A DNA stretch of 64,000 nucleotides from Chrysopilus asiliformis (lineage: Eukaryota; Arthropoda; Insecta; Diptera; Rhagionidae), in assembly GCA_964034945.1 (NCBI GenBank), contig OZ035962.1:46904386-46968385 (forward strand), given 5' to 3'. Made by a program: the position numbers and the translations under genes. This document shows positions 3,874 through 60,682 of the stretch, one piece after another. Every line of letters starts with the position of its first letter. Position 1 is the first letter of the stretch. The notes under the pieces are model-generated. The model made no database searches, had not been told where the DNA came from, and saw nothing but the letters and a program-made list of their open reading frames with translations.

Positions 3874-4237
3874 AAAGCCTCTTAACTGAGCAATTCTCGC
3901 AGACAATTCAGCAAGATTTTGCTCCAGCTCTCAATGCAAAAATCACGCAACAGTGTCTCAAACAAAATGTACCAAACTTCATTGCATTACATGCATAAGG
4001 TGGGTGCTGCGATTGATGATTGAGCAAGAGTCTCAGATTATGCTGGAAGACAAATGGCGGTTATTTCGAATAAAGTGTTCTACGATTTGTAGCTATTGTG
4101 TAGGCCAATAAATAGAAAAAAAAAGTTTTGAAAAATATTAACTTGTTTTCATTTGACATCAATTTGCCCTTGTATCAGTCTGTATGACTAGACTAGGTAG
4201 TAAGATATTCTAGACATCTATTTCAGGGAATATGTTG

Positions 4238-4535
4238 AGATGCTGCTTGCATGTGAATGAAAAACAGTGGATTTTGACGAACAATGCTATTTATAAAATA
4301 AATAGTTTTTGAAATGTTGTAAAGCGACATAAGAAATGTTTCTCGCGCAGGACAATTATTTATTTGCTCTGCATTTCATACTAGGGCAATACATACTTGC
4401 CCTGCATAAAATCACCTGCTAACACTAGAATGGCAACGGAAATGTAAAACTGATAGCGAAATACGCTCATTTCCATTGCCATGTTGTTTCAAAAACTCCT
4501 AATGTCCGAGAAAATTCTCAGATTTTCATACGCAG
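4238..4535 (+). repeat. Decayed relative of one end of the 36184-39542 palindrome
   Basis: This stretch follows the outer roughly 340 bases of the palindrome arm in order: ATGCTGCTTGCATGT, AACAGTGGATTTTGA, a TTTTTGAAAT block, AATTATTTATTTGC, CCTGCATTTCATAC, AAATCACCTGCTAA, and CATTTCCATTGCCATGTTG. It has many substitutions and indels. Only one arm is present, and the extreme terminus is not clear. Confidence 0.7.
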
Positions 4536-14880: not shown

Positions 14881-14901
14881 TGGCGAAAAACACACTTTAA
14901 A

Positions 14902-23599: not shown

Positions 23600-25012
23600 A
23601 TGGATGTTTGTCTGTTGGTTTGTCTGTCCGTTTGAGATTACAAAACTTAAAAACTACTGGAACGATTTTGACGCGGTTTTTTGCAAATGATCTGCGTTGC
23701 CAGGAGCAGGTTTTTAGCTATGTTAGATGTTAGATTTTAATTCGAAACCGAAGGTCCTTTAAGGATAACGGAAGTATCCTGTTTCCCATTTTTCTCCGGA
23801 AAAATTGCCATTATGGGGTTTTTGGTGTCGCTGATCACGAATCCGGTGTTGGAATTTCAAAATTCAAAACGGAAGGTCCTGTAAGGATAACGGAAATATC
23901 CTTTTTCCCATTTTTCCCCGGAAAAATTGCCATTGTGGGGTTTTTGGGGTCGCTGATCACGAATCCGGTATTAGATTTTCAAAATTCGAAACGGAAGGTC
24001 CTGTAAGGATAACGCAAATATCCTTTTTCCAGTTTTTCCTGAGAAAAATTTGCATTATAGGGTTTTTGGGGTCGCTGATCACGAATCCGGTATTAGATTT
24101 TCAAAATTCTAACCGTAAAGTCCTGTAAGGATAACGCAAATGTCCTTTTTCCCATTTTTTCCCGGAAAAATTGCCATTATGGGGTTTTTGGGGTCGCTGA
24201 TCATGAATCCGGTATTAGATTTTCAAAATTCTAACCGTAAAGTCCTGTAAGGATAACGCAAATGTCCTTTTTCAAATTTTCTCCGGAGAGATTGGTATTA
24301 TGGGGTTTTTGGGGTCGCTGATCACGAATCCGGTGTTGGAATTTCAAAATTCGAAACGGAAGGTCCTGTAAGTATAACGCAAATATCCTTTTTCCCATTT
24401 TTCCCCGGGAAAATTGGCATTATGTTTGAGATCGCTTAACACGAATCCGATATTAGATTTTCAAAATTCGACACGAAAGGTTCTGTAAGGATAAATATCC
24501 TTTTTCCCGTTTTTCCCCGGAAAAATCGGCATAAGGGGGTTTTTGGGGTCGCTGATCAGTCCGGTGTTGGAATTTCAAAATTCGAAAGGGAAGGTCCTGT
24601 AAGGATAACGAAAATATCCTTTTTCCCAATTTCTCCCGGGAAAATAGCCATTATGGGGTTTTTGGGGTCGCTGATCACGAATCCGGTGTTGGAATTTCAA
24701 AATTCGAAACGGAAGGTCCTGTAAGGAAAACGCAAATATCCGTTTTCTAATTTTGTCTCCGAAAAACTGGCTGTAGGGTGTTTCCGTGGTCGCTGATCAC
24801 GAGCTGGCTGTTGGAATTTGAAAATTCTAAACGGAAAGTCCTGGAAGGATAACGCAAATCTCCTTTTTCCTATTTTTCCCCGGAAAATTGGCATTATAGG
24901 GTATTTGGGGTCACTAATTACGAATCTGGTGTTGGAATTTCAAAATTCGGAACAGAAGGTCCTGTAAGGTAACGCAAATATCCTTTTTCCCGTTTTTCCC
25001 CGGAAAAATCGT
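23600..25012 (+). mobile_element. Helitron with expanded minisatellite array
   Basis: The start resembles the insect Helitron 5' segment (AATGGATGTTTGTCTG, then TACAAAACTTAAAAACTACT). From about 23740 eleven or so head-to-tail units of 110-120 bp follow, each with GGGTCGCTGATCACGAATCC, GGAAGGTCCTGTAAGGATAA and CCTTTTTCCCATTTTTCCCC. No protein is encoded. The 3' terminus is not recognisable. The array ends at a short perfect hairpin. Confidence 0.7.
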
Positions 25013-27486: not shown

Positions 27487-27627
27487 CTGTAGTGTGCTAG
27501 AGGGACAGTCACCCTACTTGGTACGAGGAACAAGCAGCCATGACGATCGTGGTCAAAAACAATGGGTCAAGTTACAATTGTTCGGTATTCAATACCTTTG
27601 ACTTTACCAGTCCTGTTATCGATTAGA
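27487..27627 (+). repeat. Displaced copy of gypsy-2 3' noncoding segment
   Basis: About 140 bases starting CTGTAGTGTGCTAG, matching 28044-28184 with an offset of 557. It is joined at a shared GATTAGA directly to the integrase tail, so this noncoding piece precedes the coding piece it normally follows. Confidence 0.85.
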
Positions 27628-27918
27628 TTAGAAGAAGCTCAACAGCGAAGCCGTCACGCGTACAATCTAAGAGCTCGGAAAATTTCATTCTCTCCCGGAC
27701 AGATGATGTATCGGAGGAACTTCGTACAGAGTGACGCTTCAAAAGGGATTAATTCAAAGTTCGCAAAAAAATATCTTCTTTCGAAAATTGTAAGAAAGGT
27801 GGCCAGAAATATGTATGAAGTTGAAGACAACATCGGTAAATCCCTCGGGATTTACCATGCCAAGAACCTCAAGCCGCAGGCGGTGTTGGATTCAACTCAT
27901 GCACCTTGCCCAGATTAA
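27626..27918 (+). pseudogene. gypsy integrase C-terminal segment (upstream copy)
   Basis: Encodes LEEAQQRSRHAYNLRARK, then FSPGQMMYRRNFVQ and GIYHAKNLKPQAVLDS, ending with a stop at 27916-27918. This is the C-terminal DNA-binding region of a Ty3/gypsy integrase. It is almost identical to 39555-39847, with no indel, at a constant offset of 11,929. Nothing upstream of it is pol, so it is the stump of a second gypsy copy that lay head-to-tail with gypsy-2. Confidence 0.85.
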
Positions 27919-29008
27919 GACCTGATCTCAGGCGTAAACGAGCCCCACGTTATCGTGAATTGCCCCTACTTCAGCAAAAGACCACTAGCTTTCTTTTTCA
28001 TAATCATTTCAAATTTTCCGTGAAAACTTTAAATGAATATGCCCTGTAGTGTGCTAGTGGGACAGTCACCCTACTTGGTACGAGGAACAAGCAGCCATGA
28101 CGATCGTGGTCAAAAACAATGGGTCAAGTTACAATTGTTCGGTATTCAATACCTTTGACTTTACCAGTCCTGTTATCGATTAGAAATCGGTACAGTTCAA
28201 CAGTCTAAAAAAATCCATCAAGTGGCTACACTTTTTTTGATTTTTTTACCCGCCAACCATGTGGGAAACGTTTAATTACATATTTTAATAACGCCTAGTA
28301 GGCTAAATAAATTATATAGTGAACATATTTAAAAATTTAAAACGCACTTTTGCCGGTAGTTTGTTTGAGGAAAATAATACGAGGTAATTCATGCAAAAGT
28401 TTAGAGTAGTTTAGAAGGTTACAAAAAAAATTTAAGTATAGTGTTTCCAATCGATCATCTAAAGATCGAACCGGTGAAAGTGCACACGCTTTTACTTTTA
28501 TTGTTTAAATAAAAGGCGCTGACTCTAAGAGACTCTTAGAAGTCGTGAACGCACAGAAATTTACCTGAGCCACGGAATTCATGGAGTTAATGAAACCTCT
28601 CGGTACCTGAAATTGGACACACAGGATACATACCAGTTGTCAGTATTAGGCAGAGACAAGAGGAGGGATTTTCTTCCAATCCGGAAACCAGAGAAGTTTC
28701 GAAAGGGTATATAGTTGAGGTTATCTGAGCACATGGCGGAAGACCGATCATCGAGGGAGCAAGATTAGGAGTTTTCCCCAGTATTATAAACACAAATAAG
28801 TTTTTAAGGATTCAGATACTCGAAGGGAAGTAAAAATTTCTAATTAACAGACATTAAAGCGGAATTTCCCACATGCATAACTTTTCTTTAAAAATTTTAG
28901 CTAGCCATTACTTCGAGGAGTCAAGGATGTGCACGTCGCTGGCTGCAACGAAGATTTTCATAAACGATCGCGACTCCTAAATAAAAGGTGAACTTTTCAA
29001 AAAAAATA
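27919..29008 (+). other. gypsy-2 family 3' noncoding region (upstream copy)
   Basis: No gene. It follows the integrase stop and matches 39848-40946 almost base for base. It ends in AAAAAGGGG (about 29000-29008), a purine-rich tract that could prime plus-strand synthesis just before an LTR starting TGAGTACC. Confidence 0.65.
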
Positions 29009-29862
29009 GTAAAAAGGGGTGAGTACCTTTTAGGTTTTTTATTAAAGTTGTGCATACAGGAAATTTTAATGAAGAGATTTCGTGGAAATCAATTTCAAAG
29101 ATTTCTATAAATTATTCGAATTAAAGCGAATTTGGTGACCCACTGTGAGAACATGAAAGCTTATTTGTGGTAGATTTCCCATTGGTTCAAGTCTTAGATG
29201 GAGTTCGGTTAGAACATTTGATCTGGAAGGTTATTTTGTGCCTGTGCTTTACAGTCAACTACCTATTTATTAGACATTAAGGCAAACTAAAGAATTTATG
29301 TTAGATTTTAAAGTTAGTAAAGTTTTGTTAACAGTTAAATTGTTAGTGTCGATTTATGTAAACTCAATCAAAATAATAATTAATATAGAGTTTTAAAAAG
29401 AAAATATACAAATAAAAATTTTTGGCTTAAATTTTTGGGCTTTCGATTAAATGGTTTTCATTTTCACGTAACCACGTGTATTATTTAAATTTTATTTCTT
29501 TTGGTGTAAATGGGAGAATCTTGGGTTTCAATTTACGGAATGGAGAGAAACTTCAACAAGTATTAAGGGAAAAGAAAGGGGGCTGAGCGATGAAGGGGTA
29601 AGGAGAGGAGTTGCGATTGTCGGACTAGTCGAGCGTCATCCCGGGTAGTAATTATGGAATTTTGGATTCGTGGTATTTAACGTAGGATGAAATATATTTT
29701 TTTGGCACGTACTGCTGTTAGTGTTCACCATTCCTGTGGATCCAAGAACCCACCCAGGGTCCAGGGTCCAGAGGATGGTCAGGGTCGGGGCACTCCTTTG
29801 AATATAGGACAAGCATGCCCCAATATCCTGTTTGCTGATCTATAAGCAAGGACAACATAACA
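29009..29862 (+). repeat. Probable 5' LTR of gypsy-2 (shared with the upstream copy)
   Basis: Bounded on the left by a purine tract and TGAGTACCTTTTAGG, and on the right by ACAACATAACA two bases before the primer binding site. That gives about 850 bases. The matching 3' LTR retains only its first 86 bases (40947-41032), so the boundaries rest on flanking signals, not on a full LTR pair. Confidence 0.5.
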
Positions 29863-29864
29863 GG

Positions 29865-29877
29865 TGGCGCCCAACGT
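29865..29877 (+). promoter_or_regulatory. Retrotransposon primer binding site (gypsy-2)
   Basis: TGGCGCCCAACGT, identical over this length to lysine-tRNA-type primer binding sites. Confidence 0.65.
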
Positions 29878-30300
29878 ATGCTAGTACTGCTTTTTAATGT
29901 TCGGTTTAATTTTCTATTTTCAAGTTTCAATTACAGTTTATGACAGACTTACAGTAGGGTATCAATTTCTTATCCTGATAATTCGAGCCAGTGAATTGGA
30001 TGATCCGATTACTGTTGTCGAGGAATTGATAATTTACAAATTATAAAATTGATCGGCACTTGGTGGTGAACTCGAGGTTGCGAAAGTGAGCATCGATTGT
30101 CACACAGGAGAGATCAATGTTTATCATGACGGGTATATTTTCAGAAGGCTTGTATGAGAGATTCTCTTAACAATTGCCCAGAAAATTTGCCTGGCTAAAA
30201 TAAATTTACAAGATAGGAGACTATTGCAGATGAAGACGATTCATCTCTATATTGCTGCATCTATAAAGTAACGTAAAAAAAATAATTTTTTTTGTTTATA

Positions 30301-31605
30301 AAGGGTGGTTAAATTTTAAGGGCCGATGTTGATTTTGAATAAAACACGAATTATTTAGGAAATTATTGTCATTTCTTTTTATTATGATAATATTGCTATG
30401 GTTCAATTATGTATGGAACAAAATATCGGCCAAATGGCCGCCGCGACCTCGGCGGCACACCTCCATCCGATGGTCCAAATTTTCGATGACGCTGAGGCAT
30501 AATTGAGGTTCTATGCCGTTAATGTGCCGAATTATCTCATCCTTTAGCTATTGAATTGTTGCTGGCTTATCGACGTACACCTTTTCTTTCAAATAACTCC
30601 AAAGAAAGAAGTCCAACGGTGTCAAATCACATGATCTTGGCGGCCAATTGACATCGCCACCACGTGAGATAACACGGCCATTAAATTTGTCGCGCAAAAG
30701 AGCGATTGTTTCGGTAGCTGTGTGGCAAGTGGCACCGTCCTGTTGAAACCACATATCGTCCACATCCATATCTTCCAATTCGGGCCATAACAAGTTCGTT
30801 ATCATCTCACGATAGCGAACACCATTCACAGTAACTGCCTGACCGGCCTCATTTTGGAAAAAATACGGTCCGATGATGCCGCCAGCCCATAAACCGCACC
30901 AAACAGTCACTCTTTGTGGGTGCATTGGTTTTTCGACAATCACTCTTGGATTATCATTCGCCCAAATGCGGCTGTTCTGCTTATTGACGAATCCACTGAG
31001 GTGAAAATGTGCCTCATCACTGAAGATGATTTTCTTCGAAAATTGATCATCCACTGTTGCCATTTCTTGCCACCATTCTGACCATTGACGATGCTTGAAA
31101 TGGTCAAGAGGCTTTAGTTCTTGAGTCAATTGCACCTTGTAAGCGTGTAAATGCAAGTCTTTATGCATAATGTTCATCAACGACGAGCATGGGAGGTGCA
31201 ATTGTTGGGCACGACGACGAGTTGAGGTGGACGGCTCTTCAGCCACACTATCGCGAACAGCAGCAATATTTTCTGCAGTACGAGCTGTACGAGCATGCAC
31301 TGGTGTTTTCACATCTCCTACAGACCCGGTTTGCTCAAACTTTTGCACGATTTTTCCGATTGTACGCACATTTGGACGATTAAATTGACCGAAAAAATCA
31401 CGAAGTGCACGATATGCATTTTGATTTGAACGCCCATTTTCATAATAAGCCTGAATAACTTTAACGCGTTGCTCGATTGTGTATCTTTCCATGGTTCAAA
31501 TTGAGTTAGTCTGAAATTGAGAAATGTCAAATGAAATGCAGAAAAAAACTTGACGTTTAGGTGTGGTTCACATTCAACATCGGTCCTTAAAATTTAACCA
31601 CCCTT
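30301..31605 (-). mobile_element. Mariner-type element (DD41D), copy 1
   Basis: 1,305 bp with inverted ends AAGGGTGGTTAAATTTTAAG, flanked by TA (30299-30300 and 31606-31607). Same length and about 99% the same sequence as 59352-60656. Inserted in the gypsy-2 leader. Confidence 0.9.
30407..31492 (-). pseudogene. DD41D mariner transposase, one nonsense codon
   Basis: Reads from ATG at 31492 for 314 residues and stops at TAG (30548-30550), where copy 2 has GAG for Glu315. Downstream the frame would continue to 30407. Relative to copy 2 there are five further amino-acid differences (at residues 134, 200, 269, 288 and 299); one of them, Cys288, lies in the block before the third catalytic residue. 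The helix-turn-helix N-terminus and all three catalytic aspartates are upstream of the stop. The lost 47 residues are the C-terminal tail, so activity is doubtful rather than excluded. It encodes an enzyme that cuts and pastes the element at TA sites. Confidence 0.9.
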
Positions 31606-32041
31606 TAGATACATGACGTTCGACGGCCGAGTAGTGATTCTTTTACTTACTATTGTTCAGTCCCCGATTATTATGATAGAAAAAAAATAAGAATATAAAT
31701 ATTGATTTTTCTGAGAAAGAAAAATTTTATATAGTTTATTCGTAAGGTATTTATTTAGTACATTCATATTGGTGTAGCTATAGTTATAGTTTCCTTTTTT
31801 AGAAATAAGAAAATTTATAAATATTTATAGTCGTTAGTTGTTTAAAATTTGTTTGATAAGTCTATATTTTTCTCATAATTATTATTTCAATTTTGTCACT
31901 CCTTGGCGGAGATATTAAAAATTAAGTAGTTTTTGTTGATATCAATCTCAAAAAAAAACGCCAAATAACAGCAAGGATACTGGTGCAGTTGCTAAACCAA
32001 TCATTGACCGTAAAGGAAGTCAAGCGGAAGCATCGTCTGTA

Positions 32042-34240
32042 ATGACGCGATCACAAGCCAAAGGTCGAGGCGGAGCCGTTCCTAAAAATTTATCACATCA
32101 CTATAGTCCTTTTGTTACCCAGAGTCGTATTCTCCGGACACCAGGAAGAGAAAAACAGAGAGAGGCAAGAAAGGAGGCGGCAGATTTAATAAATGAACTA
32201 GATCCCGACTCAATGGTAAATAATTCAAGGATACAGTTTGAAGATAGATCGTCTGAAGCATGGATGAATCCGAGTCTGTTGAATTTAACTGGTCGTACAT
32301 CGTCGATTACCAATCTACTAGATCCTGATTGTCGAAGGAATGATCATACTCAAAAGATAGATCGACGAATGCATGAGTATATAAAGGAAGTTGTGAAAGT
32401 AACGGTGGGAGTAGAACAGGCGGCTGCAATGAGGAATGCTACGGAACAAATGGAGTCGACAATCCGCACACTTTTTGAAGAATTGAGGTCGGAGGTAGTA
32501 GAAATAGGATCCACCTGGAAGACGCAAGTCTCGGCGAAAATCTCAAAGATCAAACAAAGACAATATTCAAGACAGAACGAATACAGGCGAGACTGAGAAG
32601 TTGGAAGGAGCTGTGGGATTTTCAGGACCCAGTCACCGAGTGAATTTAGATGCCATAGAACAACTGAGACAAGAATCCTGGAGAGCCCGGTCTGGGAATA
32701 AGAACTGGAGGTCAAGTTAAAACTACAGGAACCATTCCAAACCCCCGAATAGGCCACCAATCAATTTAGATCAAATTCAGCCTAATCAGATATCTGTGGG
32801 ATTTTCAGGACCCAGTAACCGAGTGAATTTAGATGCTATAGAACAACTGAGACAAGAATCCTGGAGAGCCCGGTCTGGGAATAAGAACTGAAGGTCAAGT
32901 CAAAACTACAGGAACCATTCCAAACCCCCGAATAGGCCACCAATCAATTTAGATCAAATTCAGCCTAATCAGATATCTGTGGGATTTTCAGGACCCAGTA
33001 ACCGAGTGAATTTAGATGCCATAGAACAACTGAGACAAGAATCCTGGAGAGCCCGGTCTGGGAATAAGAACTGGAGGTCAAGTCAAAACTACAGGAACCA
33101 TTCCAAACCCCCGAATAGGCCACCAATCAATTTAGATCAAATTCAGCCTAATCAGATATCGAATGGCAATTCCAGAAGTAATAACCCGAAGGTAAATAAC
33201 GACTTAGTAGTAGAATTCCAGCACTGGAATCTGGAAGGGTCTCAACCGCCACCATATAGATCACCCCTCAGTTCGAACCCTAATCGGTTAGAAAACAGTC
33301 AAAACCAAACAAGATCGAATAACAATTCATTCAATGATTCGGTCACTCATAAGTGTAGACTTGATCGATGGAATCTGAAGTTCGATGGTTCAGCCGAATT
33401 ATCAGTGGACGACTTTATTTACAGGGTTGAACGATTGACGGCTGTCTACGAATACTCAGAAAGACAATTGATGACTAACTTCCATGTCCTACTCAAAGCA
33501 CCGGCACAAGTTTGGTTTTGGGCGTTCATACGTCAACACCCAGAAGCTACGTGGATATCATTGAAGAGCGCAATATCGCTCAATATCGCTCACTCTTGAC
33601 GGATTATGACATTTTGAAAATATTAGTAGAGCGTCGGCAAGGTTTTAATGAATCTTTCGATGAATACTATAACAAGACAACTAAAGATGCAGCCAATCTC
33701 CAGATACCGGAACCAGACCTGATAAATATTATGAAACAGAACATTCAGGACAAACTCGCCATGTTGATTTTTGCTCAGCCGATCAGGACTCTAGAAGAAT
33801 TTAAAGATAGCGCAAGAAGAGCAGAGCTGTTTCTTAACAAGAGATACAGTCGGACCAACCGACCGCCATTCTCGATGCCATATAAACCTGTCCATGAAAT
33901 ATGCCCACTAGATATCTCTGGAGAGATGGACCAAGAAGAGATTTCAGCACGGGAAATTATGGAGATCCGACGACAACAGCAGGGGAACCAACAAATTTAC
34001 AAGTGTTGGAATTGAGGACCAGATGGACATACTTTCTACTATTGTCCTTCTAGAATGCGAAAGTTGTTTTGTTTCTTCTGTGGAAAACCCGAAGTAAATA
34101 CGATTACCTGTAATTGTAAAAAGGGAAACGGGATTCGTGACGAGACGAGGACGGGGGAATTTCGTCACCGAAACTCGAACCCCGATCAACAACAACATAA
34201 ACCTAAAAGAGTACTTACCCGGAATTACAGCTGCTAAAAA
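32042..34240 (+). pseudogene. gag: gypsy-2 gag, disrupted
   Basis: ATG 32042 opens a basic N-terminal region (MTRSQAKGRGGAVPKNL). Frames then change. 32611-33159 is a threefold in-frame repeat, and the capsid-like core starts near 33350 with SVDDFIYRVERL and LLKAPAQVWFWAFIR, matching gypsy-1 Gag. A 10-base tandem duplication (AATATCGCTC twice, near 33585) shifts the frame. The core resumes as YDILKILVERRQGF and IMKQNIQDKLAMLI. The first zinc knuckle has TGA in place of its second cysteine (34013-34015), and a second cysteine cluster, CFFCGKPEVNTITCNC, follows. Repeat units 1 and 2 also carry one stop each. Confidence 0.8.
32611..33159 (+). repeat. Three 183-bp in-frame tandem units inside gag
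   Basis: Units start at 32611, 32794 and 32977, each 61 codons (VGFSGPS-RVNLDAIEQLR... to ...NLDQIQPNQIS). They are almost identical. Unit 1 has TAA where unit 3 has CAA, and unit 2 has TGA where unit 3 has TGG. Unit 3 is open. Confidence 0.95.
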
Positions 34241-34281
34241 GAAACCCAAAGAATGATCATATCGAGCCTGAAAAGAAAACA

Positions 34282-36174
34282 ATGGAAACCAAAAGTCTAC
34301 ACGAAAGGATCAAAGCTTACGAAGAGGTTAGAGCAAGAATATTTGACAAAGTTATTTCCACGCCAGATTCGAAAAAAATTGAGAGAATTAGAGGAGTTAG
34401 GGATAAATTCAGGCTAAAAAGAAAACATTTCGATGAGATATCCGAGACATCACTGTCATTAGTAAATGATAACCGGCCATACGTAAAAATTTTAATTAAA
34501 GGAAAAGAATTTCACGGTCTACTGGACAGTGGAACCTCAATTAGTTGCCTAGGCAGAGATGCGGAAAAACTTCTCAAAGATATGGGACTTTCTTTCCAGA
34601 AATTCACTTCGGAGGTGAAGACTGCTAGCGGAGGAAGCCAAAGAATAATTGGGAAGTTAACGGTGCCAATGACATACAACAATATGATATGAGATATTCT
34701 ATTATTCATTGTGCCTAGTCTGTCACAGACGGTATATCTGGGAGTGAATTTCTGGAAGGAATTCAAGATCGCTCCTAACATAATTTCGGAAATCGAAGAT
34801 AGCGGCTCGACTTTGATCGAGTCAAAAATGCATGAACTGTCAGAGCAAGAGCGTCAAAGAACTACGTGCAGCTATCGAGCTATTCCCAACATATGCGAAG
34901 GACGGGTTGGGAAAGACGAGTCTTGGGGAGCACATTATCGAGGTGCAGGATACACAGCCAATAAAACAGAGGAGTTATCCAGTTTCTCCAGTCGTCGAAA
35001 AACTGATTCATGAGGAAGTGGATAGGATGATCCGACTTGTGTCATCGAGGAGTGCAACAGTGAGTGGTGTTCACCGGTGGTGCTTGTCAAGAAGCCAGGT
35101 AAGAACAGGCTCTGACTGGATTCACGCAAGCTCAACTCGGTCACCAAGAAGGACGCCTATCCATCTCATCATGTAGAGGGTCTCCTGAGCCGTCTTGAAG
35201 ATACACACTACATCTGTAGTGTGGACCTAAAAGACGCGTTCTGGCAGATCCCTCTAGAAAAGAACTCACGCGAATTCACAGCTTTCGCGGTACCGGGGAG
35301 ACCCTTGTACCAATATACCGTGATGCCGTTTGGCCTTTGTAATTCGGCACAAAGGCTTTGCAGATAGATGGACAAGGTTATCCCCCACAAACTCCGTAGA
35401 TTCGTGTTCGTGTACCTGGATGATTTGCTCATCGTGGCGAGGATATTCCAGCGTATGATTGAGTTATTGACAGAAGTGGCTGGCCTACTCAAAACTGGGG
35501 GGCTAACTGTGAACCTGGATAAGTCCAAATTTGCTTACAAGGAGCTTCGATACCTGGGATATGTTGTAGGCAGTGGGTATCTAAAAACAGACCCAGACAA
35601 GGTAGAGGAATTTTCCAGTGCCATCCACAGTAAAACAGACCAGGCGTTTTTTGGGTATGTGTGGGTGGTACAGAAGGTTTATCAAAAATTTTGCCTCACT
35701 GTCAGCACCCATTACAGATTCGCTAAAGAAAGGAAAATTTATATTCTCGGAAGAGGCAAAGAAATCGTTTGAAGCTCTGAAAACTGCACTGACTTCGGCA
35801 CCGATACTCGAACATTCCGACTTCAACAAAGCTTTCATTATACAATGCGACGCTTCAAAGGACGGAGTAGGAGGGGTCCTTTACCAGTTGGTAGAGGAAG
35901 GTACGGAAAAGCCGATCGCATACGGACTATGTTGGAGTGTATAAGACCTTATGTCAAAGACGATCACCGACATTGGGATGAAAATTTAGGTCAAATAGCT
36001 AGCTCTATTCTGAGTTCGTTGCACCAATCTATATCTACAACTCCATACGAAGTAATCTTCGGAATGAAAATGATTACACATGGATCCGAATACGAATTAC
36101 TACGAAGATTACAGTGGAAGATGGAGATATACAAACGGTGTCGTTTTCGGAAAAACGGCAAATATTTCGTGCTA
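34282..36174 (+). pseudogene. pol: gypsy-2 pol (protease, RT, RNase H start, integrase second half)
   Basis: Protease motif LLDSGTSISCLG at about 34520. A TGA at 34690-34692 lies in an otherwise continuous frame. Frameshifts near 34850 and 35030 precede the RT, which shows SVDLKDAFWQIPLEK, FGLCNSAQR, a TAG just after it (about 35366), and the intact catalytic VYLDDLLIV at about 35410. Another frameshift near 35610 leads to RRFLGMCGWYRRFIKNFA. RNase H starts (QCDASKDGVGGVLYQL) but breaks at about 35930. The next residues, YVKDDHRHWDENLGQIASSI, belong to the distal integrase core, so RNase H end, integrase zinc domain and first catalytic residues are deleted. The frame runs to 36174 and resumes at 39552 after the palindrome. 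It also continues into the palindrome as a short hybrid frame of no significance. Confidence 0.85.
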
Positions 36175-36183
36175 ATGTTAGAC

Positions 36184-39100
36184 ACGTCTATTTCATACGC
36201 AGGGCAAGTTTTGCCATGCTGCTTGCATGTCAATCAAAAACAGTGGGTTTTGATGAAAAAATAAGAAACCCGTTGCCCTGCTATTTCTAAAATTAATAGT
36301 TTTTGAAATTTTGCAAAACGGCATAAGAAACGTTTCTTACGCATGGCAATTATTTATTTGCCCTGCATTTCATACGCAGGGCAGTATATACCTGCCCTGC
36401 GTTTCTTAAGCAGGACAAAATCACCTGCTAATACGAGAATGCCAACGGGAATGTAAAATTTATACCGAAATACACTCATTTCCATTGCCATGCTGTTTCA
36501 AAAACTCCTAATTTCCGAGTTTTAGCCTCCCGAAATCTCAGATTTTTGAAAAACGGATTCTAAAAAAATACGATTTGAGCTTTTCTCGAGTGTGGTGTGA
36601 GTCTTGGTTATGGTCTTGGTTCTGGTCTTGGTTATGGTCTTGGTCAAATCAAAGTTTACTTTTTTCCCAAGATGTGAACCTTAATGAAACAATTGATAAA
36701 ATAATTCTAAAAATAACTCAAACCTTTCAACGTCAATTACACACCAAGTATTGAATCTTATTATTTAATTATTTTAAATCACTTGTTCCGGTGGGAAAAT
36801 GAATATAAAGTCAATATTGTTGATTTGTTTCATTTGAAGAAACTCTCGATCAGCTTTTCTTCCATACTGATCGAGTAAAAAAAACTTTTTTTTCAGGTAT
36901 TAAATATGGAATTTTTAAATCAAATTGATATTTCTCGAAAACAAGAAATATCAATAGATTTAAATTTTAACTGTTTGTAGTCACTGCCAAGGGCTTTCTA
37001 TTAGTACCACCCACATATCTGGGTCACTGGGAATAACGGAGAAATTAACCCTTTTGTTTGTTAAAATAATCTTATACCAGAATTTATCGCGTTTATATGT
37101 CGAAACTTTAAAATTACATTTGAGTGATTTAAAATTACATTCGACTGGTTTTGCTTCACATTTGTCGCATGGAATTTAAAACCTTGTGTACAATGCAAAA
37201 GATATTTTTTCGCGCATCAGCATAACAACTACTTGACACCTAAAGAAAGTCCCGCCAAAATGAAAATAAATTAAATTTGCAATATTCCAAATTTTGAAAG
37301 CAGGAAAATGCTTCGTTTTTATGCGTATCTATTTTGTAGGTATTTTGCCGTAAAACAGGTAAAAGATCAGTGAAGAAAACGGCCTGGGAACGACGAAAAT
37401 CAGCGAAAATCTGACGGTGGCCACAGAAGGAGAAATTTCATTTTTCATTTTCCTGTTTTCTTCCCATTTAATGGGTAAAATTACATAATAATTGGCATTT
37501 TCAAAGCGATTTTGCATTTTCACATCAAATCCCACGATTTGAATTAAAAATCTTTAAAAAAACTATAAAAACTCATTGAATGAAATCAAGTATACATTCG
37601 AAGTCCATTTGCTTGTTTTCCCTTGTGAAAATTTTTTCGATTTTTTCAACAAAATTTTTTGATTTTCCAAACGCCTTTAGCTAGAGATCTGAAATTTTGC
37701 ACAAATGCGAGTAACGTAAAGAGAAAGAATTGGTAAAAAATGGGGAAAATCGGATAACTCCTTCTCCCTTTCCCCCTGAAAATTTTCAAAAAAAGGATCA
37801 CGAGAAAAAAATTTCATACAATTTTTTTCAGGACGAGGAAAAGATTCGGTAAATTCGGGAAAACTCCTTTTTTGGTACTTTTTTTAATGAAAATTTTTAA
37901 AAATGTGGTAAACCGTTTTCGAGAAAATCGCCAAAAACTCCATTTTTAAGGGGGAAAGGGAGAAGGAGTTATCCGATTTTCCCCATTTTTTACCAATTCT
38001 TTCTCTTTACGTTACTCGCATTTGTGCAAAATTTCAGATCTCTAGCTAAAGGCGTTTGGAAAATCAAAAAATTTTGTTGAAAAAATCGAAAAAATTTTCA
38101 CAAGGGAAAACAAGCAAATGGACTTCGAATGTATACTTGATTTCATTCAATGAGTTTTTATAGTTTTTTTAAAGATTTTTAATTCAAATCGTGGGATTTG
38201 ATGTGAAAATGCAAAATCGCTTTGAAAATGCCAATTATTATGTAATTTTACCCATTAAATGGGAAGAAAACAGGAAAATGAAAAATGAAATTTCTCCTTC
38301 TGTGGCCACCGTCAGATTTTCGCTGATTTTCGTCGTTCCCAGGCCGTTTTCTTCACTGATCTTTTACCTGTTTTACGGCAAAATACCTACAAAATAGATA
38401 CGCATAAAAACGAAGCATTTTCCTGCTTTCAAAATTTGGAATATTGCAAATTTAATTTATTTTCATTTTGGCGGGACTTTCTTTAGGTGTCAAGTAGTTG
38501 TTATGCTGATGCGCGAAAAAATATCTTTTGCATTGTACACAAGGTTTTAAATTCCATGCGACAAATGTGAAGCAAAACCAGTCGAATGTAATTTTAAATC
38601 ACTCAAATGTAATTTTAAAGTTTCGACATATAAACGCGATAAATTCTGGTATAAGATTATTTTAACAAACAAAAGGGTTAATTTCTCCGTTATTCCCAGT
38701 GACCCAGATATGTGGGTGGTACTAATAGAAAGCCCTTGGCAGTGACTACAAACAGTTAAAATTTAAATCTATTGATATTTCTTGTTTTCGAGAAATATCA
38801 ATTTGATTTAAAAATTCCATATTTAATACCTGAAAAAAAAGTTTTTTTTACTCGATCAGTATGGAAGAAAAGCTGATCGAGAGTTTCTTCAAATGAAACA
38901 AATCAACAATATTGACTTTATATTCATTTTCCCACCGGAACAAGTGATTTAAAATAATTAAATAATAAGATTCAATACTTGGTGTGTAATTGACGTTGAA
39001 AGGTTTGAGTTATTTTTAGAATTATTTTATCAATTGTTTCATTAAGGTTCACATCTTGGGAAAAAAGTAAACTTTGATTTGACCAAGACCATAACCAAGA

Positions 39101-39542
39101 CCAGAACCAAGACCATAACCAAGACTCACACCACACTCGAGAAAAGCTCAAATCGTATTTTTTTAGAATCCGTTTTTCAAAAATCTGAGATTTCGGGAGG
39201 CTAAAACTCGGAAATTAGGAGTTTTTGAAACAGCATGGCAATGGAAATGAGTGTATTTCGGTATAAATTTTACATTCCCGTTGGCATTCTCGTATTAGCA
39301 GGTGATTTTGTCCTGCTTAAGAAACGCAGGGCAGGTATATACTGCCCTGCGTATGAAATGCAGGGCAAATAAATAATTGCCATGCGTAAGAAACGTTTCT
39401 TATGCCGTTTTGCAAAATTTCAAAAACTATTAATTTTAGAAATAGCAGGGCAACGGGTTTCTTATTTTTTCATCAAAACCCACTGTTTTTGATTGACATG
39501 CAAGCAGCATGGCAAAACTTGCCCTGCGTATGAAATAGACGT
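36184..39542. mobile_element. Giant palindromic (fold-back) element, 3,359 bp
   Basis: Left arm 36184-37777 and right arm 37949-39542 are 1,594-bp reverse complements, with no mismatch noticed in the stretches I compared; the spacer is 171 bp (37778-37948). Paired coordinates sum to 75,726 throughout, so there are no net indels. Ends read ACGTCTATTTCATACGCAGG inward. The element is flanked by ATGTTAGAC (36175-36183 and 39543-39551), a 9-bp target duplication, and lies inside the gypsy-2 integrase frame. Each arm holds the same 68-codon frame (37329-37535 minus, 38191-38397 plus), which matches nothing I know and is probably chance. The outer 300 bases carry several inverted GCAGGGCA / TGCCCTGC motifs. 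Nine-base duplications and very long inverted repeats are features of Mutator-like elements, but no transposase is present, so the class is an inference. Confidence 0.9.
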
Positions 39543-39551
39543 ATGTTAGAC

Positions 39552-39847
39552 GCAGATTAGAAGAAGCTCAACAGCGAAGCCGTCACGCGTACAATCTAAG
39601 AGCTCGGGAAATTTTATTCTCTCCCGGACAGATGATGTATCGGAGGAACTTCGTACAGAGTGACGCTTCAAAAGGGATTAATTCAAAGTTCGCAAAAAAA
39701 TATCTTCTTTCGAAAATTGTAAGAAAGGTGGCCAGAAATATGTATGAAGTTGAAGACAACATCGGTAAATCCCTCGGGATTTACCATGCCAAGAACCTCA
39801 AGCCGCAGGCGGTGTTGGATTCAACTCATGCACCTTGCCCAGATTAA
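39552..39847 (+). pseudogene. pol: gypsy-2 integrase C-terminal segment
   Basis: Continuation of the gypsy-2 pol frame beyond the palindrome: LEEAQQRSRHAYNLRAR through GIYHAKNLKPQAVLDS and a stop at 39845-39847. It differs from 27626-27918 by only a few bases near its start (for example CGGGAAATT against CGGAAAATT). No lesion lies within this segment. Confidence 0.9.
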
Positions 39848-41032
39848 GACCTGATCTCAGGCGTAAACGAGCCCCACGTTATCGTGAATTGCCCCTACTT
39901 CAGCAAAAGACCACTAGCTTTCTTTTTCATAATCATTTCAAATTTTCCGTGAAAACTTTAAATGAATATGCCCTGTAGTGTGCTAGTGGGACAGTCACAT
40001 TACTTGGTACGAGGAACAAGCAGCCATGACGATCGTGGTCAAAAACAATGGGTCAAGTTACAATTGTTCGGTATTCAATACCTTTGACTTTACCAGTCCT
40101 GTTATCGATTAGAAATCGGTACAGTTCAACAGTCTAGAAAAATCCATCAAGTGGCTACACTTTTTTTGATTTTTTTACCCGCCAACCATGTGGGAAACGT
40201 TTAATTACATATTTTAATAACGCCTAGTAGGCTAAATAAATTATATAGTGAACATATTTAAAAATTTAAAACGCACTTTTGCCGGTAGTTTGTTTGAGGA
40301 AAATAATACGAGGTAATTCATGCAAAAGTTTAGAGTAGTTTAGAAGGTTACAAAAAAAATTTAAGTATAGTGTTTCCAATCGATCATCTAAAGATCGAAC
40401 CGGTGAAAGTGCACACGCTTTTACTTTTATTGTTTAAATAAAAGGCGCTGACTCTAAGAGACTCTTAGAAGTCGTGAACGCACAGAAATTTACCTGAGCC
40501 ACGGAATTCATGGAGTTAATGAAACCTCTCGGTACCTGAAATTGGACACACAGGATACATACCAGTTGTCAGTATTAGGCAGAGACAAGAGGAGGGATTT
40601 TCTTCCAATCCGGAAACCAGAGAAGTTTCGAAAGGGTATATAGTTGAGGTTATCTAAGCACATGGCGGAGGACCGATCATCGAGGGCGCAAGATTAGGAG
40701 TTTTCCCCAGTATTGTAAACACAAATAAGTTTTTAAGGATTCAGATACTCGAAGGGAAGTAAAAATTTCTAATCAACAGACATTAAAGCGGAATTTCCCA
40801 CATGCATAACTTTTCTTTAAAAATTTTAGCTAGCCATTACTTCGAGGAGTCAAGGATGTGCACGTCGCTGGCTGCAACGAAGATTTTCATAAACGATCGC
40901 GACTCCTAAATAAAAGGTGAACTTTTCAAAAAAATAGTAAAAAGGGGTGAGTACCTTTTAGGTTTTTTATTAAAGTTGTGCATACAGAAAATTTTAATGA
41001 AGAGATTTCGTGGAAATCAATTTCAAAGATTT
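39848..41032 (+). other. gypsy-2 3' noncoding region and 86-bp stump of the 3' LTR
   Basis: Matches 27919-29101 at offset 11,929, then 11,931 to 11,930 after a one-base A-run difference near 40925. The LTR-like start TGAGTACC is at about 40947, and similarity ends abruptly at about 41032, where the LTR is cut off. Confidence 0.75.
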
Positions 41033-41576
41033 CATAGCACAGTATGAAACCGCTATTACAGATTCAAGAGCAAATGCAACGTCACACACTTTATATTTTC
41101 ACAACAACACGCCATTTATAAAAACTTTTTTTTTGAAACTTTAAAACATTTTTTTTGAAACTTTAAACTTGCGACCCCGAAAACCCCCTGATGCCAGTTT
41201 TTGCCGGAAAAATGGGAAAAAGGATATTTGCGTTATTCTTACAGGATATTCCATTATCCTTACAAGGATAGAGTAGTAAAAATATTGAACTGTCACCGGA
41301 ACTACGCAAGGTGACAAAATTTCATCTTTCTAGGTTGAATAGTTTCGGAGATATAAGGTTCCAAAGATTCCAGAGATAGACACATAGCCAGGTAGCCAGC
41401 CAGGTCGCGACAAATCAACTTAATAGAAAGTGTATAAAAAATGCCTACAGTTCGGCCATCCTGGCCAGTAATCGCCTCGACTACTATAAAACATTATACA
41501 CAGTAATTGACGTAACAATCACATTAGAATTGCAAAGAAAACAATAAACACTACTTGCATAAGCGATAATCATTTT
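41033..41576. other. No gene; Helitron minisatellite piece
   Basis: 41165-41275 contains one to two Helitron repeat units (GCGACCCCGAAAACCCCC, CCATTATCCTTACAAGG). The rest is unassigned. A short AGCCAGGTAGCCAGCCAGG run lies at about 41386-41404. Confidence 0.5.
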
Positions 41577-41771: not shown

Positions 41772-42676
41772 ACACATGGATCAATAAGTCCCGAGACTAA
41801 CCCAGAGATGACGCTCGTAGTAAACCAGTAACCACGTCTTTCTAGAGTACTAACCTTTGCTTGAAACGTGTCAAAATTTTAAGTCGATCGGACCAGAAAC
41901 AGCTGAGTTATCGAGGTTGGAGTAAAGTCGTTTTGTAGTTTGTTTAAAAAATGGAAAAAACCGAGTTTCGTGTTCTGATAAAACATTGTTTTTTAATGGA
42001 TAAAAACACCGTGCAAGCGAAACAATGGATTGAAAAATGTTACCCGGACTCTTGTCCATCAAAAGCAACGATTTGTCGGTGGTTTGCCGAGTTTAAACGT
42101 GGTCGTACCGACACAAATGACGCGGAACGCTCGGGTAGACCTGTGGAAGCCGTTACACCGGAAAATGTGAGTGAAGTGACAAAAATTATAATGAAAGATC
42201 GTAAAGTGAAGCTCCGTGAGATTGCTGAGATAACACAGATATCATATGGAAGTGCATTTACTATCCTTCATGAAAAATTGAGCATGAAAAAGGTTTTTTC
42301 CAAGTGGGTGCCGCGATTGCTTTCGATGAAACAAAAACAGCAACGAGTCGATGATTCAGAAAGCTGTTTATCGCTATTTACTCGCAATAAAAAAGATTTC
42401 TTGCGTCGTTACGTGACCATGGACGAAACATGGATACATCACTACACTCCAGAGTCGAAGCGGCAGTCATCTGAGTGGCGCACAGCTGGCGAAAGCCGTC
42501 CGAAGCGTCCGAAAACGCAGCAGTCAGCTGGCAAAGTCATGGCGTCAGTTTTTTGGGATACGCATGGCGTGACGATTGTATCACCCTAAAAGGTGATTAT
42601 ATTGATGAATAAAAAAAAATTTTGCAAAAAAAATGTTGTTTTCATTGTTAGTCTCGGGACTTATTGATCCATGTGT
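41772..42676 (+). mobile_element. Deleted mariner element, 905 bp
   Basis: Perfect 30-bp inverted ends starting ACACATGGATCAATAAGTCC, flanked by TA (41770-41771 and 42677-42678). An internal deletion has removed the distal part of the transposase gene. Confidence 0.95.
41951..42589 (+). pseudogene. Mariner transposase, internally deleted
   Basis: ATG 41951 begins MEKTEFRVLIKHCFLMDKNT, the N-terminal helix-turn-helix region. The protein continues through DAERSGRPVEAVTPENV, the WVPRLLS linker, VTMDETWIHHY with the first catalytic Asp, and VMASVFWDTHGVTIV, then stops at 42587-42589. In another frame ITLKGDYIDE and TAA follow at once (about 42580-42612), which is the normal C-terminal end of mariner transposases. 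So roughly 130 residues, with the second and third catalytic aspartates, were deleted, with a frame change at the junction. The family is the classic DD34D mariners (mellifera-like by eye). It cannot transpose itself but has ends an active relative could use. Confidence 0.9.
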
Positions 42677-43432: not shown

Positions 43433-43789
43433 TAGGGGAGACTGGGATATTGTGGACCACGGGGAATTGTGGACCAGCGTCATATTTTTTTCCCTAGTAG
43501 TGGTTGGTAGCTGCAAATAACTGTAATCAGTTTGCCTCATGTTAAGCTAATTTTCCCCACAGTACTCGACTTGTGTATACACACTATCACCTCGCTTCGA
43601 TAGCAAATAGAAAAGTGATACTTCGAAAAAAAAATTTCACTTTGTGTTTCGTTTAATTTGACCAGATTTTTCAAGAACCAACTCAGGTAAATATGTTCAT
43701 AATATTCGCGGAGCCTTAAGCATTCGACACAGACAAGAAATTTTGCATGAAGTTTGCATTGTGTTACTAATAGCTGCCATATTGTAAAA

Positions 43790-44387
43790 CATAACAAAAG
43801 CTATAATTGCCAATCTGGCCATTATTGAAAACCCGTATGGTGATTTAATTGAATGGCGAACAGTTTTATCAAAATTCCACTATGAAGTCAAACTTTCCAA
43901 TAAGATTTTTAAAAATTTGTTCCAATCCGATTTTGATGTATGGGAGTTTTATGTAAAATAATATCCTGAATAACTTTTGTTCTTGGACTTTTTTGATAAA
44001 ATTCACCGTTTTTGAGATATTCGCAAAAAACGATTTCGTTCGTATGGGGGGTACCCCCCCTAATGGTCAATTTTTGCCCATTAACGAACTTAGCCTCGCA
44101 TTTTACGAAAAACGGATCTGCGCAAAATTTCAAGTCTCTAGCTCAATCCGTGCGCCCACAATCCGCGCCACAGACAGACAGACGGACGGACAGACGGACA
44201 GACGGACAGACGGACAGACGGACAGATAGACGGACAGACAGACAGACGGACGGACATGCAGAAATTAATTATTTTTATCATTCTAAACACACTGGTGTAA
44301 TTCATTTTTATGTGTGATGGCGGGATCTTGGCGTTACAAACGGTAAGGCAAAGTTAATATACCCTTTGGTTTCACCATACGGGTATA
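43790..44387 (+). mobile_element. DINE-1-like element, full length, longest microsatellite
   Basis: CATAACAAAAGC to CACCATACGGGTATA, with a GACGGACA/GACA tract at about 44173-44255, the longest in the window. C1 gives the unfilled target at 25436-25445. Confidence 0.95.
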
Positions 44388-46602: not shown

Positions 46603-47163
46603 TATACCCGTATGGTGAAACCAAAGGGTATATTAACTTTGCCTTACCGTTTGTAACGCCAAGATCCCATTATTACACACAAAAATGAATTACACCAGTG
46701 AGTTTAGAATGATTAAAAAAATTGATTTTTGCATGTCCGTCCGTCTGTCTGTCCGTCTGTCCGTCTGTGGCGTGGATTGCGAGCGCACGGATTAAGCGAG
46801 AGACTTGAAATTTTGCGCAGATCCGTTTTTCGTAAAATGCGAGGCTAAGTTCGATAATGCGCAAAAATGAACCATTAGGGGGGGTACCCCACATACGAAC
46901 GAAAACGTTTTTTGCGAATATTTCAAAAACGGTGCATCTTATCAAAAAAGTCCAAGAACAAAAATTATTTAGGATATGATTATACATAAAACTCCCAGAC
47001 ATCAAAATCCGATTGGAAAAAATTTAAAAAAATCTTATTGGAAAGTTTGACTTCAAAGTGGAATTTTGGTACAACTGTTCGAATTTTGATACGAATATCA
47101 CCATACGGGTTTTCAATTGGCAATTTTTGGATTGGCAAATTGGCAATTATAGCTTTTGTTATG
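46603..47163 (-). mobile_element. DINE-1-like element, near full length
   Basis: TATACCCGTATGGTGAAACC to TTTTGTTATG with all family blocks. The dyad near the end is rearranged (GGCAATTTTTGGATTGGCAA). Nested in the hAT element, and flanked by T-runs on both sides. Confidence 0.95.
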
Positions 47164-47603
47164 TTTTTATTCGTATTTTCTTTTTGCTACGTTTTATGAT
47201 TTTTCATAAAATTTATTTTTATAGAAACTGCACTGAATTACTTTGTGACAAACTATTATTAAAGTGCGTTTTTTTGTTTTCAGTTTCCATACAATGTGTA
47301 ACGAAATATAACGTTATAACGTAACGAAATGAAATTTTTTATCGTTACAAAACGAAATAACGTAACGAAATAAAAGTTCAATTTCGTTACGTAACGAAAT
47401 GTATAACGTTACGATTTTTTATTTCGTTTCCCGTCCCTGGTTGTAAGGGAAGAAGTAATGTCTGAAAAGATTCTTATCACTTACCAACGTAATGTGTTGT
47501 ATGGGAAAAAGTAATGCGTTAAAACACTCTACAAAATATTTAAAAATTAAAAATACTAGTCGGGGTCTCAAAAATTGTCAAAATATTCTTTGCATTTTTA
47601 ACC

Positions 47604-48826: not shown

Positions 48827-48944
48827 AAAAAAGTTCGAAATAAAAAAAAAATAAAACCGACTTTAAAAAAATAACTAAAAAGGAAAAAAAGCACTAAAAA
48901 GAAAAAAATAATTTAAATATACGTCCATTAATGGAGTATTTAAA

Positions 48945-49531
48945 CATAACAAAAGCTATAATTGCCAATCTGGCAATTATTGAAAACCCGTATGGTGATT
49001 TAATTGAACGGCGTATCAAAATTTCATTTGAATTCAAATTTTCCAATAAGATTTTTTTAAAACTTGTTCCAATTGGATTTTGATGTATGGGAGTTTTATG
49101 TAGAATCATATCGTAAATAACTTTTGTTCTTGCACTTTTTTGATAAGATGCACAGTTTTTGAGATATTTGCGAAAAACTTTTTCGAGCCTATGGGGGGTA
49201 CCCCCCTAATGGTCCATTTTTGCCCATTAAGGAACTTAGCCTCGCATTTTACGAAAAACGGATCTGCGCAAAATTTTAAGTCTCTAGCTCAATCCATGCG
49301 CCCGCAATCCGCGCCACAGGCAGACGGACAGACAGACGGACAGACAGACGGACAGACAGACGGACAGACGGACAGACAGACGGACAGACGGACGGACACA
49401 TGCAAAATTCAATTTTTCTTATCATTCTAAACACACTGGTGTAATTCATTTTTTTGTGTGATGACGGCATCTTGGCGTTACAAACGGTAAGGCAAAGTTA
49501 ATATACCCTTTGGTTTCACCATACGGGTATA
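48945..49531 (+). mobile_element. DINE-1-like element, full length, first of a tandem pair
   Basis: CATAACAAAAGC to CACCATACGGGTATA. Microsatellite (GACGGACAGACA)n at about 49320-49395. Three A bases separate it from the next copy. Confidence 0.95.
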
Positions 49532-49533
49532 AA

Positions 49534-49970
49534 CATAACAAAAGCTATAATTGCCAATCTGACAATCATTGGAGACCCGTATGGTGATATTCGTATCAAA
49601 ATTCTAACAGTTATACCAAAATTCCACTTTGAAGTCAAACTTTCCAATAAGATTTTTTAAAATTTATTCCAATCGGATTTTGATGTATGGGAGTTTTATG
49701 TAGAATCATATCCTAAATAACTTTTGTTCTTGAACTTTTTTGATAAGATGCTCCGTTTTTGAGATATTCGCAAAAAACTATTTCGTTCGTATGGGGGGTA
49801 CCCCCCCTAATGGTCCATTTTTGCCCATTAACGAACTTAGCCTCGCATTTTACGAAAAACGGATCCACGCAAAATTTTAAGTCTTTAGCTCAATCCGTGC
49901 GCCCGCAATCCGCGCCACAGACAGACTGACGGACAGACAGACGGACGGACATGCAAAATTCAATTTTTTT
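49534..49970 (+). mobile_element. DINE-1-like element, truncated, second of a tandem pair
   Basis: Family order: CATAACAAAAGC, dyad AATTGCC/GGCAATT, CCGTATGGTGATATTCG, A-rich block, GGGGGGTACCCCCC, GCGCCCGCAATCCGCGCC, GACGGACA tract. This copy ends after ATGCAAAATTCAATTTTTTT, without the CACTGGTGTAATT segment or the CACCATACGGGTATA end. Confidence 0.9.
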
Positions 49971-50135: not shown

Positions 50136-50709
50136 TATACCCGTATGGTGAAACCAAAGGGTATATTAACTTTGCTTTACCGTTTGTAACGCCAAGATCC
50201 CGTCATCGCACAAAAAAATGAATTACACCAGTGTGTTTAGAATGATAAAAATAATTAATTTCTGCATGTCCGTCCGTCCGTCCGTCTGTCTGTCCGTCCG
50301 TCCGTCTGTCCGTCTGTCCGTCTGTGGCGCGGATTGCGGGCGCACGGATTGAGCTAGAGACTTGAAATTTGGCCCAGATCCGTTTTTTGTAAAATGCGAG
50401 GCTAAGTTCGTTAATGGGCAAAAATGGACCATTAGGGGGGGTACCCCCCCATACGAACGAAAACGGTTTTTGTGAATATCTCAAAAACGGTGCATCTTAT
50501 CAAAAAAGTGCAAGAACAAAAGTTATTTAGGATATGATTCTACATAAAACTCCCATACATCAAAATCCGATTGGAATAAATTTTAAAAAATCTTATTGGA
50601 AAGTTTGACTTCAAAGTGGAATTTTGGTACAACTGTTCGAATTTTGATACGAATATCACCATACGGGTCTCCAATGATTGCCAGATTGGCAATTATAGCT
50701 TTTGTTATG
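50136..50709 (-). mobile_element. DINE-1-like element, full length (574 bp reference copy)
   Basis: Read on the minus strand it runs from CATAACAAAAGC at 50709 to the CACCATACGGGTATA end at 50136. Inverted subterminal motifs CCGTATGGTGA / TCACCATACGG and a terminal TATACCC...GGGTATA pair are clear. T-runs flank both sides. No open frame of significance. Confidence 0.95.
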
Positions 50710-50967
50710 TTTTTAGATATTCTTTGTCTCCGTATACAAACCGATTTTGTGCGAAACTTGACAGACAACTTAACTCTAATCCGCACACCCGGTGACTTTG
50801 AGTCACCGTTTCAGTTTTGAAAGTGATTGTTACGAATGTTAGAAAAGTTATTGCATTCATGCTCCTTGACTTTGTTTTTTTATGCCAATACTATTTAAAA
50901 ACGAAAAAAAAATTTAAATTTTTTTACTACAACAATAATATTTTGCTTTTATGAAATTTACCCTTAA

Positions 50968-60656: not shown

Positions 60657-60682
60657 TATTTAAATTATGTTTAGTTTTAAAT

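Follow-up and report, generated by a model that had tools for sequence, protein, structure and literature searches.

We found an element of about 3.36 kb inserted into a gypsy retrotransposon in the 64-kb window (the whole stretch of DNA that was analysed), composed of two long arms that are perfect reverse complements of each other around a short non-symmetric spacer and bounded by an exact 9-bp target-site duplication. It is very probably a non-autonomous foldback (long-inverted-repeat) DNA transposon, presumably Mutator-like, which would obtain its transposase from elsewhere, whose arms may have grown by copying and which entered a gypsy copy already resident at this position.

A perfect palindrome bounded by a target-site duplication

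When each position i of the left arm was paired with position 75726-i, no mismatch was observed at any of the 1,594 positions, exactly as the earlier note had claimed in describing two 1,594-bp arms with a coordinate sum of 75,726 and 171 bp between them (Table 1). A repeat finder reported an inverted pair of 1,599 bp with a single mismatch at 37778. Symmetry stops sharply in the spacer, where 59 of 81 mirror positions are mismatched, and is also gone outward of 36184. A palindrome arising by chance or from low complexity is ruled out by the length of the arms, their perfect pairing and the far shorter second-longest inverted pair in the window, 421 bp at 93% (pairs no more than 6 kb apart, among the 25 longest of 159).

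The termini of the element read ACGTCTATTTC, with ACG as the first three bases, and both outer arm ends directly adjoin a copy of ATGTTAGAC. On the + strand of the window this 9-mer is found at 36175 and 39543 and nowhere else, which confirms the exact flanking repeat reported before, and the duplication is neither longer nor shiftable, the adjacent bases being A and T before the two copies and A and G after them. The exactness of the 9-bp duplication, and the empty site restored when the element is removed, give good support to its arrival as a discrete mobile unit.

Table 1. Coordinates of the palindromic element, its solo relative, the X traces and its host in the window
Feature	Position	Strand	Evidence or remark
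Target-site duplication, left copy	36175..36183	.	ATGTTAGAC; exact, adjoins arm
Left arm, 1,594 bp	36184..37777	+	Perfect reverse complement of right arm
Non-symmetric spacer, 171 bp	37778..37948	+	Abrupt loss of symmetry
Right arm, 1,594 bp	37949..39542	-	Perfect reverse complement of left arm
Target-site duplication, right copy	39543..39551	.	Exact, adjoins arm
Element terminus sequence			ACGTCTATTTCATACGCAGGGCA
Outer module of left arm, common to solo relative	36184..36550 (mirror 39176-39542)	+	Match to 4214-4530
Four copies of 16-bp motif TTTCATACGCAGGGCA, left arm	36191, 36333, 36368, 36402 (36191..36417)	+	0, 2, 0 and 3 mismatches
Mirror copies of TTTCATACGCAGGGCA, right arm	39520, 39378, 39343, 39309		
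Degenerate X copy, spacer into right arm	37862..38055	+	30.8 bits versus 12.4 on mirrored left side
Left-arm X counterpart, without spacer-borne part	37671..37748	-	12.4 bits
Older solo relative of outer arm (terminus + about 367 bp)	4214..4530	+	BLAST E about 1e-75; nhmmer 353 bits, with a profile that itself includes this copy
Presumed 5' LTR of host gypsy	28045..29105	+	9 substitutions + 1 indel versus 39974-41033
Decayed gypsy pol (RT, RNase H, end of integrase), insertion host	34306..36114	+	tblastn with homologous Pol proteins
Integrase C-terminal tail past insertion	39545..39802	+	114/120 Pol proteins align
3' LTR of host gypsy (3' edge uncertain)	39974..41033	+	Comparison with 28045-29105

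The insertion site in the host gypsy element

Joining the two flanks with one copy of the 9-bp repeat gives a single open frame through the site. We compared this region by tblastn with the best 120 of 2,216 homologous Pol proteins, 97 of which align just left of the site, 114 just right and 96 both left and right. In every one of these 96 the distance between the two matches departs from that of the empty site by no more than 4 residues, and in 82 the departure is 0 to +1. The earlier claim that an integrase frame is restored on removal of the element is thus upheld by the open frame and by the spacing of the Pol proteins, with the qualification that only the C-terminal tail of the integrase is interrupted, because 334 to 355 residues (median 344; 95 proteins) are missing from this gypsy copy at 35923. 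From the domain order, the missing stretch should take in the zinc-binding and catalytic regions of this protein. Stops and frame changes are also present upstream of the insertion, which thus lies in the tail of an integrase that was, or later became, defective. The region 39539-39844 has no Pfam match.

The two LTR copies were assigned as a 5'/3' pair on their position, one lying upstream of the presumed gag region of the host element and the other at the element end. As to the mobile elements of the window more generally, the nearest named proteins for one belong to the flies Anastrepha ludens (89% identity) and Musca autumnalis (88%), the alignments covering 70% of the query, while spiders and other groups appear among the lower-ranked matches; those for a second are from the flies Episyrphus, Ceratitis and Eupeodes (60-61%) and the moth Eumeta (59%). 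Such matches point to a fly as the likely host, or at any rate an insect, although mobile elements can pass between species; a nematode host, to which the composition had pointed, was discarded because flies predominate among the best named protein matches.

Coding content and repeated motifs of the element

None of nine of the longer ORFs of the element matched a Pfam family above cut-off, in line with the earlier statement that nothing recognisable is encoded; these nine are part of 63 stop-to-stop ORFs of at least 35 aa, a set that includes flanking and mirrored ones. We accordingly reject a hidden transposase or coding remnant among the nine, and take two sub-cut-off matches, PSA_CBD (E 0.0081) and TbpB_C (E 0.0013), as chance. 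The spacer contains two overlapping ORFs, 37758-37946 (+) and 37680-37883 (-), both without a Pfam match, and Rfam at gathering thresholds gave 0 matches in the 64-kb window.

The outer part of each arm carries a repeated 16-bp motif. Allowing up to 3 mismatches, TTTCATACGCAGGGCA has nine matches on both strands of the window, namely four in each arm and a ninth at 4524, at the right edge of the solo relative described below; the copies are probably transposase-binding sites. Tandem repeats with 12-, 24- and 34-bp units were also found in the arms, and arm positions 372-1490 match nothing else in the window at an E value of 1 or below. None of 300 shuffles equalled the imperfect self-inverted stretch at arm positions 42-310, in the outer module, yet 30 of 300 random windows did, and we give it little weight; for the solo relative, 11 of 300 shuffled sequences and 44 of 300 random windows did as well. 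Apparent older palindromes within the inner arm were conspicuous but were ruled out, as 24 of 200 shuffles equal them.

A diverged solo relative in the same window

The sequence at 4214-4530 begins at the same terminus as the palindrome arm and aligns with arm positions 1-367, with identity at 249 of 320 aligned columns in the main block. A diverged solo relative that shares the terminus implies that the family exceeds one insertion and that its termini are old. We looked for a second arm of this relative and did not find one; the 8- to 11-mers beside its left end do not recur in 3500-6000, where a duplication or right end was sought, and there is no second full-length copy of the family in the 64-kb window. 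Patterns from the outer arm (two against viral contigs and one against bacterial and archaeal genome contigs) gave 0 matches, a result uninformative on rarity since these collections are not expected to hold insects.

Direction of arm growth

A dispersed repeat of about 420 bp, here called X, has copies in the window that include 14896-15321, 43787-44192 and 49530-49939, and a degenerate trace of it is present in the palindrome. The trace is colinear through the junction of spacer and right arm, whereas on the left side the arm portion alone is present. The spacer by itself scores 7.5 bits against X, compared with 4.8 for the best of 500 shuffles, and is beaten by 3 of 500 random windows drawn from sequence other than the listed X copies; these three, at 52671, 25587 and 13510, are perhaps further X remnants. 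The one-sided trace therefore provides modest evidence that the right side is original and the inner left arm its inverted copy, and it suggests arm growth through the copying of one side onto the other, a process resembling that described for the 2RT copies of Galileo, in which internal sequence was recruited into longer arms (PMC3573991). An identical asymmetry of X would be expected if an ancestral palindrome had been longer and had since lost a piece of the left centre.

Age and identity of the arms

Because the palindrome is nested in an element with LTRs of its own, arm and LTR divergence can be compared directly. The arms differ at 0 of 1,594 positions and the presumed LTR pair at 9 of 1,060, plus one indel. 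At the LTR divergence, 13.5 arm differences would be expected and none was observed; if both changed at equal rates, all nine differences would be confined to the LTRs with a probability of 2.6e-4, and the ratio of arm to LTR divergence has a 95% upper bound of 0.26. The arms are therefore much younger than the host insertion, or homogenised, on a clock in which the LTRs are paired by inference and may have undergone conversion too. This comparison supports the earlier claim that the palindrome is very recent or gene-converted, youth and conversion being indistinguishable in it.

The insertion could thus be older than it looks, with the identity of its arms kept by ongoing gene conversion (or by hairpin or cruciform repair) and not by youth, which we consider a serious possibility although not the favoured one. 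The arm and LTR counts and the sharp edges of the symmetry count in its favour, recombination between long arms that lie near each other has been proposed for Galileo (PMC3573991), and perfect 1-kb palindromes are described as strongly recombinogenic in yeast (PMC1952172). The organisation of 27488-41033 also bears on this point. Along it stand an LTR stub, an integrase tail, an LTR, the gypsy that carries the palindrome and a further LTR, an arrangement resembling two gypsy copies in tandem, the first of which lost its internal part from LTR base 140 onward. The upstream remnant consists of 140 bp of LTR (27488-27627) joined to an integrase tail and followed by the LTR at 28045; the join shares 3 bases (AGA, 27625-27627), and the tail starts at the base matching 39554-39557, which is 2 to 5 bases beyond the duplication of the palindrome. 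A deletion provoked by the palindrome would stop at this distance past the duplication, as the junction does, and a palindrome that predated the tandem duplication would need its arms homogenised. The two integrase tails differ at 2 of 420 positions, and the chance that both differences fall there at equal rates is 0.04. On the other hand, a young insertion accounts for the arms without any conversion, the junction was noticed post hoc and could quite possibly be a coincidence, and there is a single copy of the palindrome with none other to compare. We take the junction at 27625-27627 as a hint, possibly coincidental, that the palindrome may be older than its arms suggest.

Arm symmetry may even be actively maintained, being re-copied during break repair, so that its perfection would be a by-product of transposition or of palindrome instability. 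If so, the nearby deletion that stops just past the duplication would be a further trace of that instability.

Assignment to a class and a proposed route

Target-site duplications of 9 bp are not exclusive to Mutator-like elements (MULEs). The element has the features of a foldback transposon, with long inverted arms, internal repeated motifs, a short non-coding middle and a target-site duplication that adjoins the arms, and its duplication of exactly 9 bp lies inside the 8-11 bp given for MULEs (PMC6446971). Most arthropod MULEs are described as having conserved G/C within the first three terminal bases (PMC13359780); in the terminal ACG two of the three are G/C and the first is A. The Mutator-like affinity that had been proposed is thus plausible by the length of the duplication and the long arms, while a terminus beginning with A does not agree with it so well. 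That initial A would sit more easily with a foldback element of a non-MULE superfamily, and the foldback form is convergent, Galileo being a P-superfamily member yet built like Foldback (PMC3573991), but 9 bp fits the 8-11 bp of MULEs (PMC6446971) and not the 7 bp of Galileo (PMC3573991), and we hold this assignment to be the less likely one.

For the probably Mutator-like foldback element, we propose the following route. A transposase made by another copy would bind the repeated subterminal motifs and cut at the ACGTCTATTTC termini, with insertion by cut-and-paste through a 9-bp staggered cut. Internal sequence would be copied from side to side in inverted orientation, by repair of excision breaks or by template switching between the arms, turning a short terminal module into a 1.6-kb arm. 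The element would then have entered the already resident gypsy, either recently enough for the arms to remain identical or with enough later arm-to-arm conversion. For replication from a hairpin form, which the earlier note had also offered, we found no supporting evidence here.

Predicted hairpin RNA

The predicted RNA fold of the strand is a full-length hairpin with 1,594 of 1,594 mirror pairs and an energy of -2,822 kcal/mol, so that the claim of a 1.6-kb perfect duplex is borne out as a predicted fold. If transcribed, the element would be a ready source of 1.6-kb double-stranded RNA. Such end-to-end folding is what would be expected of any palindrome of this kind.

Read-through from the host LTR could in principle produce this duplex and, from it, siRNAs that silence the family, in the manner of maize Mu killer or of fly hpRNAs. 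Mu killer forms a perfect 2.4-kb hairpin (PMC2563033) and one fly hpRNA is described as having transposon-derived arms, but any comparable palindrome folds likewise and the host element is decayed, and we find a role as a hairpin-RNA source improbable. It is similarly doubtful that the element is a newly formed natural silencer, in which arm-to-arm copying would have made a perfect 1.6-kb hairpin downstream of an LTR and the resulting double-stranded RNA would act against the family. This putative silencer, if real, would be the equivalent in an animal of maize Mu killer, observed before either arm had acquired a mutation.

The least probable reading, which we give very little credence, is an assembly artefact through an inverted join or through polishing in which one arm was overwritten with the sequence of its partner: perfect identity is expected of a fold-back chimera and of over-polishing alike, and over-polishing could have erased a few arm differences, but a chimera would not end both arms precisely at a 9-bp duplication, the same reading frame and residue count are resumed beyond the element, and the non-symmetric 171-bp spacer carries one-sided repeat homology.

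Comparison with known systems

Tc4 of Caenorhabditis elegans is also of foldback form, its arms long and almost perfect around a short middle; it differs from the element described here in its shorter arms and 3-bp duplication. The closest likeness in a fly is Tetris of Drosophila virilis, for which arms of up to 1,735 bp, 8-10-bp duplications and no conserved ORF are described (PMC4079207). Tetris likewise combines long arms with a variable middle and was placed in Mutator by its authors for the same reasons, whereas its arms hold tandem repeats of about 220 bp (PMC4079207), an array of which none was found in the arms described here. Tm1 of root-knot nematodes is a single family that combines foldback-like arms, 9-bp duplications and a MULE transposase (PMC3169594). 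It resembles our element in the duplication, in composite arms with repeated motifs and in copies that mostly lack a transposase, and differs in its termini (CGGTTAA or CCTACCC followed by GGA, as against ACGTCTATTTC), in its motif and in its size of 0.17-2.5 kb (PMC3169594).

Galileo offers a parallel for arm growth. In D. mojavensis its longest arms measure 1,260 and 1,241 bp with 95.2% identity, and the longest TIRs are described as never occurring in nearly complete copies (PMC3573991). Inverted recruitment that lengthens the arms, longest arms without a transposase ORF and solo-TIR relatives are features common to both elements; Galileo differs in its 7-bp duplications, against 9 bp here, and in its arm identity, against 100% over 1,594 bp here (PMC3573991). 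A narrow search of open-licence papers on homogenisation of Galileo arms, in which every term had to occur, gave 0 papers. Arm lengths of MULEs are given as 13-1,193 bp in arthropods (PMC13359780) and 14-500 bp in wider eukaryotes (PMC6446971), and the 1,594-bp arm exceeds both maxima, in surveys of which the arthropod one covers transposase-coding elements; foldback arms were reported in a 2007 paper to reach at most 1-2 kb (PMC1952172). Mu killer is likewise a transposon-derived, perfect, kilobase-scale inverted duplication; it is transcribed, and it silences the known autonomous element from which it arose (PMC2563033), a role that would be hypothetical for the element described here.

Among the matches listed from open-licence papers, by title and abstract opening, none is a transposon whose arms are as long as these and wholly identical. 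The earlier view that such extreme symmetry without a transposase is unusual holds for the perfect 1.6-kb identity and was overstated for the rest, given that Tetris, Galileo and the shorter Tm1 are published. The foldback kind of element is therefore already known, and the unusual, notable part is that the arms are both 1.6 kb long and identical. It is a clean foldback example, its arms longer than those of most, nested in an element with its own clock, which makes it testable whether foldback arms are alike by youth or by mutual conversion, and the one-sided repeat trace suggests in which direction such arms grow.

Repeats and mobile elements around the palindrome

A gypsy remnant in the window consists of the first 140 bp of an LTR, then an integrase tail and then another LTR copy. 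The 140-bp piece and the integrase tail share three bases (AGA) at their junction, and the tail starts 2-5 bases beyond the end of the palindrome's 9-bp target-site duplication as placed in the other copy. This junction could be either a coincidence or the scar of a deletion provoked by the palindrome, a 3.36-kb foldback element, in a tandem gypsy.

Within the host gypsy element, the decayed gypsy that carries the palindrome, the presumed gag region holds three tandem units of 183 bp that are 98% alike. A SUZ domain (E 2.6e-7) lies ahead of a weak protease match, an unexpected partner in a retrotransposon polyprotein.

The two copies of a DUF4817-coding element share 98.7% identity across ∼1.33 kb. 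The encoded protein has 89% identity with a protein of Anastrepha ludens, and its more distant named matches include transposases named Tc3 and DD41D. Given the near identity of the copies and these transposase matches, the element is likely to be a Tc1/mariner-type relative that was active recently.

A mariner-type transposase fragment with a partial Transposase_1 domain, and with HTH_48 slightly under the cut-off, follows the LTR of the host gypsy element on its downstream side.

Features of the window
Feature	Position	Strand
∼420-bp dispersed repeat (further copies exist)	14896-15321, 43787-44192, 48939-49337, 49530-49939, 50304-50712, 53875-54282, 46746-47166, 6834-7186	
Gypsy remnant	27488-29105	
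Three 183-bp tandem units, presumed gag region	32611-33160	
SUZ domain and weak protease match	34207-34692	
DUF4817 element	30294-31620, 59343-60671	
DUF4817 protein, 362 aa	59458-60546	minus
Mariner-type fragment	41948-42589	
Tandem arrays, 122-123-bp units	23062-23436, 23739-25009	
Stretch related to these arrays	41171-41324	
120-bp array, similar in appearance	5356-5668	
PIF1-type helicase ORF	56092-57651	minus

The tabulated copies of the ∼420-bp repeat show 79-83% identity to the first listed, and several adjoin GACAGACG-type microsatellites. This family may resemble the non-autonomous Helentron-type elements of flies.
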